Part shown: piece after piece, positions 38,444-41,909 of the stretch
Position numbering within the stretch: position 1 is the first letter of the stretch
Layout of the letters: every line of letters begins with the position of its first letter
DNA from: Paenisporosarcina cavernae
Lineage (GTDB): Bacteria > Bacillota > Bacilli > Bacillales_A > Planococcaceae
Direction of reading: 5' to 3'
DNA length: 64,000 nucleotides
Assembly: GCF_003595195.1 (NCBI RefSeq)
Contig: NZ_CP032418.1
Span: 1,066,501 to 1,130,500, forward strand
Position numbers and translations under genes: made by a program
The notes under the pieces: generated by a model
Databases searched by the model: none
Seen by the model: only the letters and a program-made list of their open reading frames with translations
Told to the model about the DNA's origin: nothing

Positions 38444-39073
38444 ATGTTTGCTAAAAGTGTCATGATCCCAAAAGAAAAATGCCTAACAATTCAAGCTGGT
38501 GAATCCGTTGAAACAGCTTTAGAAATTCTTGAACAAAAACAATTGGATGCTCTTCCGGTTTTAGATGGGAAAGAATATAAAGGATTGTTAAATCGATACA
38601 TCGTCTATAGAGAATACTTTTATAGTGGAAAAGAGAAACAGGATTTTTTAAGTAATATGACGGTTCTCGACTTAGTTACGATGCAAGAGGTTTATCTCAC
38701 ATCGGAAGATGTTTTTGAAAAATCTTTTTACCAACTAAATGATTTTCCAATTATCGCTGTTGTAGAGGAAGGGAAATTTTTAGGTTTAGTAACACGTTAT
38801 GATATGATGAATGAATTCCAAAGTGCTTTTGGTATGAAAAAAGATGGAATTCGAATTTCATTCACTTCTTCTGAAGCAGAAGGAAGAATTGCACGTCTTG
38901 GAGACATTATCGAAAAACATCATGAATCAGTTATTTCACTTGTAACGTTTGACGAAACTGACAAGTTACTTCGTCGAATCGTCTTGAAAGTTGAAAAGCG
39001 AGGGAATTTACCATCGTTTTTACACGACTTAGAAAAATCAGGATTTCGAGTTCTCCATATTGAAGAAGACTAA
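38444..39073 (+). CDS. CBS-domain protein, AcuB-like
   Basis: A 209-residue cytoplasmic protein with two CBS repeats (about 1-60 and 72-130, FPIIAVVEEGKFLGLVTRYDMM), which usually bind adenine nucleotides. A C-terminal ACT-like region (about 137-207) starts RISFTSSEAEGRIARLGDII. The layout resembles AcuB-type regulators, but the ligand and target are unknown. ATG is preceded by AAAGAGGG. It occupies the place of ypbF. Confidence 0.8.
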   Translation: MFAKSVMIPKEKCLTIQAGESVETALEILEQKQLDALPVLDGKEYKGLLNRYIVYREYFYSGKEKQDFLSNMTVLDLVTMQEVYLTSEDVFEKSFYQLNDFPIIAVVEEGKFLGLVTRYDMMNEFQSAFGMKKDGIRISFTSSEAEGRIARLGDIIEKHHESVISLVTFDETDKLLRRIVLKVEKRGNLPSFLHDLEKSGFRVLHIEED

Positions 39074-39097: not shown

Positions 39098-39175
39098 CTT
39101 TCTTCGATTCGCTCTATAAGAAATGATGAGACAATCATGCTACAGTGTTAAAGGTAAGTGAAAGAGGAGATCAAG

Positions 39176-39922
39176 TTGCAAATTGTTGGCATTCTATTAT
39201 TCGTCTGTATAGCGTTGGTCGCACTTATGTTCTTTTTGGCACATTTTGCCGTGATTAGACATCATAAAGTTGCTTCGCCAATTCCGATTGAAGAAGATAT
39301 TAAGTTGTTTTTTATTTCTGATATTCATCATCGAAAAATAAGCAAACAACTGTTGAAAAAAATAAAAGACTCTGTAGATTTCATCATTATTGGTGGAGAT
39401 TTAACGGAAGAATCTGTACCGATTAAAAAGACCGAAGAAAATATTCGTTTATTAACAGGAATTGCTCCAACTTATTTTGTTTACGGCAACAATGATCGAG
39501 AAGTTGGAGAACACAAACTTGAGAGCATACTGATGAAATATCATGTAGAAATTTTATCAAACCGGTGCGTAAAGATAGATGGCCATTCCTTACAATTGGT
39601 TGGAATAGATGACACAACTGCTGGATTAAGTAATATCACACAAGCATTTGAAAATTGCCATTCAGATATCCCAATTGTGTTTATCTCTCATACTCCTGCC
39701 ATTATTCGAAAAGTGATGGAAAACTATCATCCTTTTTTATGTTTATCTGGTCATACGCACGGAGGACAGATTCGGTTAGGAAAATGGGGTTTACAGGATT
39801 TAGGCTCTTTTGAAAGGAAAGATGGTTACTTTCAGCTGATTAGTAATGGGTATGGAACAACTTTCTTACCTTTTCGTTTTGGCGCGATTGCGGAATGTCA
39901 CATTATGACGATTACGTCGTGA
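39176..39922 (+). CDS. ypbG: membrane-anchored calcineurin-like metallophosphoesterase, YpbG-like
   Basis: A 248-residue protein with an N-terminal hydrophobic anchor (about 3-25) and the complete dinuclear-metal set: SDIHH, GGDLTEE, YGNNDRE (GNHD variant), ISHTP and SGHTHGGQ. It resembles YkuE/YpbG phosphoesterases; the substrate is unknown. TTG 39176 lies 6 bases after AAGAGGAGA and is preferred over GTG 39158, which overlaps that site. Confidence 0.88.
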   Translation: MQIVGILLFVCIALVALMFFLAHFAVIRHHKVASPIPIEEDIKLFFISDIHHRKISKQLLKKIKDSVDFIIIGGDLTEESVPIKKTEENIRLLTGIAPTYFVYGNNDREVGEHKLESILMKYHVEILSNRCVKIDGHSLQLVGIDDTTAGLSNITQAFENCHSDIPIVFISHTPAIIRKVMENYHPFLCLSGHTHGGQIRLGKWGLQDLGSFERKDGYFQLISNGYGTTFLPFRFGAIAECHIMTITS

Positions 39923-39947
39923 ATGTGTTTCGACTGCATACCAATCA

Positions 39948-39976
39948 TTTACAATGGGGAATAACTTCAGTAAACT
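39948..39976 (+). promoter_or_regulatory. candidate sigma-A promoter of the MerR/B12 regulator gene
   Basis: TTTACA (39948-39953), a 17-base spacer and TAAACT (39971-39976), 40 bases ahead of the start codon. The -10 is embedded in an inverted repeat. Confidence 0.5.
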
Positions 39977-39989
39977 AAGCACTGTTTAC
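39970..39989. promoter_or_regulatory. inverted repeat over the -10, candidate autoregulatory operator
   Basis: GTAAAC and GTTTAC form a perfect 6-bp inverted repeat with an 8-base spacer, overlapping the predicted -10 and start region. CarH/LitR-type repressors bind over their promoters in the dark, so this is a plausible binding site; inferred from position only. Confidence 0.4.
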
Positions 39990-40015
39990 CAAGCGATTTC
40001 TAGGAGATGTTTATA

Positions 40016-40927
40016 GTGGCAGAACAACAAGGAAAATACAATATGAAAGCATTCTCTCAGTTAGTAGGGATATCTCCGGGTACCATTCGCGCTTGGGAGA
40101 GAAGATATCATATACTTTGTCCAATTAGAAATGACATAGGTCATCGACTGTATACAGATGCAGATGTCGATATGATTTTATGGTTGCAAAACAAAATAGA
40201 AACAGGATTTACGATTAGCCAAGCTGTTTCGCTATTTGAACAACGTAATGCGTTTGAGATTGATGATGTTAAAAAAGATCAAACAGATCAAAAAAGAGTG
40301 GAACGGATACAAGAAGAGTTAGTGCATGCATTTCTATCGTTTGATGAAATTTCAGCACAACAGCTTTTAGATCAAACATTTAATCTTTTTACTCTCGAAA
40401 AAGTATTTTTCGACATTCTTTCACCTGTTTTGTTTAAAGTAGGAAATTTATGGGAAGAGGATAAAATTACCACCGCACATGAACATTTTGCTACATCGAT
40501 TATTCGATCTAGAATTAGCGGTATCATGCAAAGTTTCCCTGCCAATCCAATGCTTCCAAAAGTATTAGCTGTGTGTGGTCCTGGAGAATGGCATGAGTTA
40601 GGTCTGCAAATATTCTCGATTTACTTAAAACGTAAAGGATATGACGTGGTGTATCTAGGTAGTACCGTGAAAGACGGAGATATTAAAAGTGTGCTTCCGA
40701 TGATTCGTCCGCAACTATTGATCCTGTCGGTTACATTGGATCGGAACTTACCTAAAACAATTGAACTCTTGCATGAATTGCAGGAATCATTTCCTGAGAT
40801 CCGAATAGGCTTAGGTGGAAAAGCAATTGAAAGATCAAATTATTTACAAGAGAAGCATATAGGTACGACACTATCCGAATGGGATAATTGGATAAAAGGG
40901 AATTCTAAGTCTGAACGTAAGGTGTGA
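40016..40927 (+). CDS. MerR-type regulator with cobalamin-binding domain (CarH/LitR-like)
   Basis: A 303-residue DNA-binding regulator. The N-terminal MerR winged helix (8-80) has GISPGTIRAWERRY. A four-helix B12-cap follows (about 100-175) with W146-x9-E156-H157, the Wx9EH signature of CarH photoreceptors. A Rossmann-like B12 domain (about 182-290) has E191-x-H193-xx-G196 for the lower axial histidine. Such proteins bind adenosylcobalamin, repress in the dark and release DNA in light. GTG 40016 lies 9 bases after AGGAG. Its start is 5 bases' operon spacing from ypdA at the other end. The target genes are not evident. Confidence 0.85.
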   Translation: MAEQQGKYNMKAFSQLVGISPGTIRAWERRYHILCPIRNDIGHRLYTDADVDMILWLQNKIETGFTISQAVSLFEQRNAFEIDDVKKDQTDQKRVERIQEELVHAFLSFDEISAQQLLDQTFNLFTLEKVFFDILSPVLFKVGNLWEEDKITTAHEHFATSIIRSRISGIMQSFPANPMLPKVLAVCGPGEWHELGLQIFSIYLKRKGYDVVYLGSTVKDGDIKSVLPMIRPQLLILSVTLDRNLPKTIELLHELQESFPEIRIGLGGKAIERSNYLQEKHIGTTLSEWDNWIKGNSKSERKV

Positions 40928-40931
40928 TTTT

Positions 40932-41909
40932 TTGAAACAAGAAGAAATTATCGTTATTGGTAGTGGACCGTGCGGTATGTCCGCTGCAATTGAACTGCAA
41001 AAGAAAGGATTTAATCCTTTAATTATAGAAAAAGGGAATATTGTTCAAGCAATTTACAATTACCCAACGCATCAAACATTTTTTAGTACGAGTGAAAAAC
41101 TAGCAATTGGAGATGTTCCTTTCATTGTAGAGCAACGAAAGCCTTCTCGGAATCAAGCGCTAGTTTATTATCGTGAAGTGGCAAAACAGCATAAACTGAG
41201 ATTACACCGATTAGAGGAAGTACTTGACGTCACAAAAATTGAAAATGAGTTCAAAGTAATGACGAACAAATCTACTTACTTAACAAAACGAGTCGTAATC
41301 GCAACAGGCTACTATGAACAACCAAATATGTTAGGTATTGATGGAGAAAAATTGCCGCACGTTTATCATTACTTTAAAGAGGGACACCCATTTTTTGATA
41401 TGGATGTTGTCGTAATTGGAGGAAAGAACTCGGCTATCGATGCTGCGTTAGAATTAAACAAGGCCGGCGCAAGAGTAACAGTGGTTTACCGAGGCACGGA
41501 GTATTCGAAAAGTATTAAACCATGGATTTTACCTGAGTTTGATGGATTAGTACGTAACGGGGAAATCACCATGCATTTTAATTCCCAAGTTTCCTCTATC
41601 AAAGAAAGTTCGGTCATTGCAAATGTAGATGGCGAAACGAAGGAATTAAAAGCAGATGCTGTTTTTGCAATGATCGGTTATCATCCAGATCATAAATTCC
41701 TCAAAAGTTGTGGAGTGGAGCTGGATGATCTTACCGGAAGACCAATTGTGAAAGAAGAAACAATGGAAACATCCGTTCCGAATTTATATATAGCGGGAGT
41801 CATTGCAGCCGGTAACAATGCAAACGAAATATTTATTGAAAATGGACGATTTCATGGGCATGCAATTGCAGCAGATATCGATTCAAAATCATTGGAAACA
41901 AACGAATAA
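40932..41909 (+). CDS. ypdA: YpdA, bacillithiol disulfide reductase family flavoprotein
   Basis: A 325-residue NADPH-dependent FAD oxidoreductase with the N-terminal dinucleotide motif GSGPCGMSAA. Its YpdA-specific stretch is EKGNIVQAIYNYPTHQTFF followed by STSEKLAIGD; the second nucleotide motif is GGKNSAIDAA and the C-terminal FAD motif ends YIAGVIAAGN. It is thought to reduce oxidised bacillithiol. TTG start with AAGGTG 7 bases upstream, 4 bases after the regulator's stop, so the two genes share a transcript. Confidence 0.92.
   Translation: MKQEEIIVIGSGPCGMSAAIELQKKGFNPLIIEKGNIVQAIYNYPTHQTFFSTSEKLAIGDVPFIVEQRKPSRNQALVYYREVAKQHKLRLHRLEEVLDVTKIENEFKVMTNKSTYLTKRVVIATGYYEQPNMLGIDGEKLPHVYHYFKEGHPFFDMDVVVIGGKNSAIDAALELNKAGARVTVVYRGTEYSKSIKPWILPEFDGLVRNGEITMHFNSQVSSIKESSVIANVDGETKELKADAVFAMIGYHPDHKFLKSCGVELDDLTGRPIVKEETMETSVPNLYIAGVIAAGNNANEIFIENGRFHGHAIAADIDSKSLETNE

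Follow-up and report, generated by a model that had tools for sequence, protein, structure and literature searches.

A CarH-type cobalamin regulator next to ypdA in Paenisporosarcina cavernae and its candidate operator at mgsR

In the window, which is the whole 64,000-nucleotide stretch of Paenisporosarcina cavernae DNA that was analysed, a gene for a MerR-type regulator with a cobalamin-binding domain stands immediately before ypdA, and a first-pass annotation had read the two genes as a co-transcribed thiol-redox unit controlled by light or B12. This arrangement leads to the question whether ypdA is indeed what this regulator controls and, if not, which gene is. The reading that we favor, with a probability of roughly two in three, is drawn from sequence comparisons and is that the regulator is a photoreceptor repressor of the CarH type, syntenic among Bacillaceae and their kin, that its best-conserved target is mgsR, on which it would act as an adenosylcobalamin (AdoCbl) light switch, and that ypdA is an incidental neighbor. 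The coordinates of the features are given in Table 1.

Table 1. Features at the regulator locus of the window and mgsR of the same genome (G000)
Feature	Position	Strand	Remarks
Metallophosphoesterase gene, upstream neighbor of the regulator gene	39158..39922	+	Pfam Metallophos
Upstream degenerate repeat, CATACC, which matches 2 of the 4 fixed letters and may be left over from a tandem 11-bp operator	39937..39942	+	Repeat scoring
TTTACA, -35-like hexamer in the promoter of the regulator and the only complete CarH half-repeat (TnnACA) still present there	39948..39953	+	Promoter scan
-10-like hexamer TAAACT, 17-bp spacer	39971..39976	+	Promoter scan
CarH-type MerR and cobalamin-binding regulator	40016..40927	+	303 aa from GTG 40016; 306 aa from ATG 40007
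ypdA, YpdA-family bacillithiol disulfide reductase	40932..41909	+	TTG start; TIGR04018 457.6 bits, cut-off 339.9
mgsR of G000	C1:1312096-1312452	minus	56% identity to the query; TIGR01617 135.7 bits, cut-off 75.05

Domains, motifs, and fold of the regulator

The open reading frame of the regulator spans 40007-40927 on the plus strand and the GTG at 40016, which is 9 nt past AGGAG, is the likelier start; counted from this GTG, the residue numbers of the first-pass annotation were reproduced exactly. The Pfam models MerR_1 (50.1 bits compared to a cut-off of 21.6), B12-binding_2, and B12-binding all matched above cut-off. In an alignment of 32 sequences, which takes in more distant paralogues, R25, W27, E28, R30, and Y31 of the RxWERRY recognition helix were invariant and so were W146, E156, H157, E191, H193, G196, S238, and G267-G268. 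Both signature motifs of CarH, Wx9EH and ExHxxG, were kept in 46 of 46 sequences with the window protein counted in. The domain matches and this conservation confirm that the gene codes for a MerR and B12 protein with both motifs, as had been annotated. The B12 motif of CarH is given as D/ExHx2G/Px41SxT/Vx22-27GG (PMC9304148) and in the window protein it is E191xH193x2G196-x41-S238xT240-x26-G267G268, where T240 is the sole named residue that was not invariant among the 32 aligned sequences.

Structure prediction against CarH had been suggested as a check of the CarH assignment. When the AlphaFold2 model of the regulator (mean pLDDT 83.0, pTM 0.67) was searched with Foldseek, the light and dark structures of Thermus thermophilus CarH ranked first (5c8f, E 1.4e-15, and 5c8d; about 27% identity), and in the phmmer search the regulator matched the T. 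thermophilus CarH entries 3whp (E 6e-26) and 5c8d (E 7.6e-26). The whole-chain TM score of the model to the CarH structures was about 0.5, a value that probably reflects flexible placement of the DNA-binding domain. With the NCBIfam CarH equivalog model, NF052513, the regulator scored 131.7 bits, which is far below the cut-off of 400, and therefore it is called CarH-type here by motif and fold and is no equivalog by that model. In the order of its domains, in Wx9EH, in the B12 motif, and in its fold it is like CarHTt, the CarH or LitR of T. thermophilus (PDB 5c8d, 5c8e, 5c8f). The class II LitR PmlR2 of Pseudomonas mendocina is in the LitR/CarH family too but it is described as a LOV photoreceptor effector and is set apart by that description. 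The CarH-type identity is thus supported by both motifs, by the fold, and by the CarH-type operators in the relatives and in its own genome that are described below, and the window gene looks like one for a CarH-type repressor that senses light through B12, with AdoCbl binding and a response to light as predicted properties. A PduO-type adenosyltransferase is encoded in G000, which makes it probable that this organism can convert cobalamin to AdoCbl.

G000 also encodes a second B12-domain protein on the minus strand at C1:2453727-2454239 (L146), a 222 aa open frame that has W-x9-EH and ExHxxG, with ORFs for a STAS-domain protein and a GGDEF protein nearby. No DNA-binding domain was found in this protein and its best PDB match was 8jbs. 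It is possibly a stand-alone cobalamin light sensor that feeds a stress or c-di-GMP pathway.

The junction with ypdA in the window and in relatives

In the window the two genes are on the same strand, only 4 nt separate the stop of the regulator from the start of ypdA, the AAGGTG before that start overlaps the regulator stop, and a sequence scan of the gap detected no terminator-like site between them. It is confirmed that ypdA, 4 bases past the regulator, is a bacillithiol disulfide reductase gene, the TIGR04018 match being above cut-off. From the 4-nt gap, co-transcription of the regulator and ypdA in the window is likely. These features favor the view that the two genes are a light- or B12-controlled operon selected as a thiol-redox unit, and so does the adjacency of the two genes without any intervening gene in G082 and G030, two genomes of the window's genus, and in two Domibacillus loci.

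The survey of gene neighborhoods that had been suggested along with this view speaks against it. A single scan of named genomes identified regulator relatives at 46-54% identity in 42 loci, the genera including Rossellomorea and Domibacillus (both Bacillaceae), and 39 of the 42 loci reach ypdA. In 36 of these 39 Bacillaceae loci two ORFs, of 193-213 and 421-441 aa, are between the regulator and ypdA, some with extra small ORFs; in L054 only the shorter of the two is present and in the two Domibacillus loci there is none. At L058 the intervening ORFs were checked with HMMs and are a glutamate dehydrogenase (PF00208, PF02812) and a member of NF002781 above cut-off, of the MecA kind, which we take to be gudB and ypbH, respectively, whereas at the other loci this identity is by size. 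To this extent the relatives agree with the earlier statement that ypbH and gudB occupy this slot in B. subtilis. The regulator and ypdA are not a conserved pair and as a conserved pair they were rejected on synteny.

The gaps in G082 and G030 are 67 and 64 nt and both have a hairpin followed by a T-run, which is terminator-like, and the contig of a third genome of the genus, G100, ends inside the regulator. Both Domibacillus gaps have, as read by eye, a promoter-like TTGAAT-17-TACAAT before ypdA. Among the genomes seen with the regulator and ypdA adjacent, the 4-nt gap was found only in the window. No tandem-repeat operator was detected before ypdA in the five gaps scanned, the best triple scoring 9/12 in the window and 7 in the others. 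As ORFs of the size of ypbH and gudB intervene in most loci and other adjacent gaps have a terminator-like hairpin or a promoter-like site, the regulator-ypdA pair is taken to be a deletion product. The best read of the junction is that it arose by the loss of ypbH and gudB, that the pair may be co-transcribed in the window, and that in the window species there may be read-through into ypdA from the regulator promoter. In the window the CarH operator at that promoter scores no better than chance, as shown in the next section, and light control of ypdA through it is therefore doubtful. Altogether, an operon selected as a thiol-redox unit is quite improbable. What is kept of the co-transcribed light or B12 unit is the likely co-transcription and what is lost is the conserved pairing; a link of the regulator to thiol redox may take another route, namely the conserved operator at mgsR, the gene of a CxxC redox-switched Spx relative.

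On the other side of the regulator is the metallophosphoesterase gene, presumably ypbG, and of the 39 Bacillaceae loci holding both the regulator and ypdA, 37 include an ORF that matches it. A CBS protein at 38444-39073 of the window resembles the c-di-AMP binding protein CbpA but below cut-off (83.5 versus 150 bits), and an ORF matching this CBS protein is near the regulator in many relatives.

Tandem repeats at the regulator promoter and at mgsR

CarHTt and CarHBm are described to bind tandem 11-bp direct repeats, nnnnTnnACAn (PMC9304148), which are alternatively written nAnnTnnACAn (PMC8156234). Repeats of this kind were seen upstream of the regulator in many of the 42 loci, where they overlap the -35 of TTTACA-17-TATAAT-type promoters; those at L055, for instance, are TGAACA-n5-TATTCA-n5-TATACA-n5-TACACA. 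The triple score at the regulator's own promoter was at least 11/12 in 33 of 42 loci compared to 0 of 42 when reversed, two perfect tandem repeats were present in 32 of 42 compared to 5 reversed, and four repeats scoring at least 14/16 were present in 22 of 42 compared to 4 reversed. The CarHTt operator design, tandem 11-bp repeats over the -35, is matched by these repeats in the window's relatives, and the four-repeat operators reported for CarHBm, the CarH/LitR of Bacillus megaterium (PMC9304148), resemble the DR-dr-DR-DR arrangement at Rossellomorea regulator promoters. In the Domibacillus genome of L063 a one-mismatch repeat block in the opposite orientation is directly upstream of the regulator (G206:C78:117829-117856).

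At the regulator promoter of the window, the -35 hexamer TTTACA is where the region singled out by the first-pass annotation starts (39948), and many orthologues have TTTACA in the same place. There were 11 promoter-like sites in the stretch compared to a shuffle mean of 8.1 and so the match to a promoter is weak on its own. The best triple score here was 8/12, which is equal to that of the reversed control and thus at chance level. Judged by these scores, the regulator promoter of the window has lost its CarH operator. An inverted repeat, GTAAAC/GTTTAC, noticed by eye near 39970-39990, was dropped because the CarH design is one of direct repeats.

When 13 genomes were searched with the exact triple-repeat pattern there were 48 matches, compared to 6 with the pattern written backwards. 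Thirty loci were viewed, by eye and in part with HMMs. Five were at an Spx/MgsR-family gene (L098, L110, L113, L124, and L122), three were at crtI (L096, L100, and L106), and 16 of the 30 were elsewhere, beside or inside other genes. L104 and L117, which are one place in G207, have the repeat at an Spx/MgsR-family gene on the opposite strand with a forward score of 9/12. Four had triple CarH-type repeats next to or in front of a DUF4397 gene, behind which is a sortase-like gene (L101:1501-3017 and L114, which are one place, L123:41-1528, and L120), this assignment being HMM-checked at L101 only. The regulator was the only full-length MerR and B12 match in 14 of 14 genomes (those 13 and G100) and from this we infer that the operator sites belong to it. 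In G082 two crtI genes were above cut-off with a perfect triple repeat between them, and in G000 no crtI match above cut-off was found. A stricter pattern with up to 2 mismatches gave 8 sites in G000 compared to 6 in the control, and with at most 1 mismatch the mgsR site was the only one.

The mgsR product of G000 is in the Spx/MgsR family above cut-off, has a CxxC (YPSCTSCRK), and is likened to MgsR of B. subtilis by this family match (TIGR01617). The gene is named from its identity to the query and not from a direct comparison with B. subtilis MgsR, and in part from the neighboring gene, on what we take to be the B. subtilis gene order. Upstream of it, at C1:1312495-1312522, is GTGACA-n5-TATACA-n5-TGTACA followed by TATAAC, that is, two full repeats and one degenerate repeat. 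This operator scored 11/12 and the reversed stretch 10/12, so that the site alone is modest and it is conservation that carries the case. No sigmaB-type site was found within 400 bases of G000 mgsR, and an 11/12 operator without a sigmaB-type site was also found at mgsR in G030, G082, and G100. By sequence, then, the tandem 11-bp TnnACA repeats over a promoter that characterize a CarH operator are present at mgsR and not at the regulator promoter of the window.

Conservation was examined in 199 genomes from the order of G200 (Rossellomorea) with thresholds of at least 221 bits for the regulator and E<=1e-36 for mgsR. The regulator was found in 115 genomes and mgsR in 80; both were in 71, the regulator only in 44, mgsR only in 9, and neither in 75 (Fisher p 6e-14, uncorrected for relatedness). 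The 9 are 8 genomes without the regulator and G312, in which the regulator match is split in two frames; 6 of the 71 regulator matches have in-match stop codons (open frames 304-356 aa) and were kept in the counts. As 44 genomes have the regulator without mgsR at the threshold used, mgsR is not the only role of the regulator. The upstream DNA of all 80 mgsR genes was examined. A perfect triple repeat (12/12) was present in 56 of the 71 genomes with the regulator and in 1 of the 8 without it, namely G250 (Fisher p 3.8e-4, uncorrected for relatedness), and also in G312; in the reversed control of the 71 only 1 reached 12 and 7 reached at least 11. A sigmaB-type site, scored as GTTT-N13-17-GGG[T/A]A, was present in 8 of 8 genomes without the regulator compared to 7 of 71 with it (p 2.5e-7, uncorrected for relatedness), and 6 of these 7 are without a perfect operator. 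There were 15 of the 71 without a perfect mgsR operator, of which 9 are also without a sigmaB-type site, 5 scoring just 7-8 of 12. The mgsR gene of B. subtilis is described to depend on sigmaB exclusively (PMC7235348), whereas in G000 the sigmaB-type site is absent and a CarH-type operator is present instead. This contrast between operator and sigmaB-type site at mgsR reads as an exchange of the promoter input. At mgsR of G271, G334, G305, G361, and G228, which have the regulator, and of G386, which does not, a sigmaB-type GTTT...GGGTA shares one stretch with a TATAAT-like element and partial repeats scoring 9/12, the three overlapping one another, and these hybrid promoters are perhaps intermediates of such an exchange.

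In the window's genus the regulator was found in 4 of nine genomes and mgsR was unbroken in all 4, whereas in the five genomes without the regulator mgsR was absent or damaged in 5 of 5 (p 0.008, uncorrected for relatedness). No close mgsR was found in G061 and G091, frame and stop damage was seen in G047 (L282) and G072 (L283), and in G011 (L174) both CxxC cysteines were lost, as read by eye. L282, L283, and L174 are mgsR remnants at differing stages of decay, and the operator scores were 10/12 in G047, 9/12 in G011, and 8/12 in G072.

Could the mgsR operators be owned by another DNA-binding protein of similar site preference, the co-occurrence of the regulator and mgsR being shared ancestry only? 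The above p-values ignore relatedness, and the mgsR upstream regions fall into only 15 (at 70%) or 46 (at 80%) similarity clusters, which would leave room for such an owner. At least 5 of the 71 genomes have a second full-length MerR and B12 match (G292, G322, G350, G366, and G401) and operator ownership is therefore ambiguous in those, and in G250 the perfect repeat stands without the regulator. However, the same 11-bp direct-repeat design recurs at the regulator's own promoter, no second full-length MerR and B12 protein competes in the 14 genomes mentioned, and inside one genus the absence of the regulator coincides with the loss or damage of mgsR. Another owner is, on this balance, very unlikely, and we continue with the regulator as the putative owner of the mgsR operator.

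The light-state residue and the proposed switch at mgsR

The residue after the motif Trp is Glu147 in the window regulator, whereas in CarHTt it is His132, the upper ligand of the light state. Glu was found at this position in 45 of 46 sequences, with Gly in 1, and it also occupies the position in 90% or more of the 32 aligned sequences. The His after the motif Trp, which is one of the features of CarH membership, is thus absent from the window regulator; many, not all, myxobacterial CarH proteins are described to have it (PMC9304148). His132 of T. thermophilus CarH is described to matter for light-driven disassembly, and in one study H132A CarHTt was mostly tetrameric in light, but the same paper also cites an earlier report in which H132A disassembled in light (PMC10442372). 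With Glu in place of His132 and these H132A data, a photoresponse of the regulator is therefore plausible but not safe. The near-invariance of Glu and the tetrameric H132A protein would also suit a regulator that is a cobalamin-binding repressor at the same operators but responds to the B12 level, that is AdoCbl present or absent, rather than to light. This is unlikely in our judgment: the earlier H132A report speaks against it, the light state of B. megaterium CarH is a dimer and disassembly therefore varies (PMC9304148), and Wx9EH and the lower-ligand motif are both kept in the regulator.

For the favored light switch we propose the following mechanism. In the dark and with AdoCbl, a tetramer of the regulator would bind the three tandem 11-bp repeats, which overlap the -35 and the spacer of the sigmaA-type mgsR promoter, and would thereby block mgsR. 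Light would cleave the Co-C bond, the regulator would leave the mgsR promoter, and once it is off the DNA, MgsR, an Spx-family redox-switched regulator of a stress sub-regulon, would be made and be ready for redox activation. In the relatives the regulator would also occupy the promoter of its own gene, and in some of them a site beside crtI. In G000, where the own operator appears to be gone and crtI was not found above cut-off, mgsR would be left as the one clear site, and the loss of ypbH and gudB would have put ypdA directly behind the regulator.

CarH, including CarHTt, is described through carotenoid genes in the sources cited here, whereas the conserved site of the window regulator is at mgsR. 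Among the matches listed in a literature search there was no paper linking MgsR or Spx with CarH; an earlier report is possible, especially for B. megaterium CarH. The regulator would thus belong to a familiar type of receptor but have a conserved target that was not expected and, in its light switch, an unusual residue. We think it somewhat more probable than its opposite that in many Bacillaceae and their kin a CarH-type B12 light receptor, with Glu for the light-state His, provides the input to MgsR in place of sigmaB, in which case this redox-switched regulator would be gated by light, together with B12 status, and not by the general stress sigma factor. The near-invariant Glu at the His132 position would be a natural test of the need for a bis-His light state. 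If the proposal is true, mgsR would be a clean case of promoter rewiring, in which a sigmaB site was swapped for a photoreceptor operator, and through the conserved CarH operator of a redox stress regulator, light would serve bacilli as an advance signal of oxidative stress.
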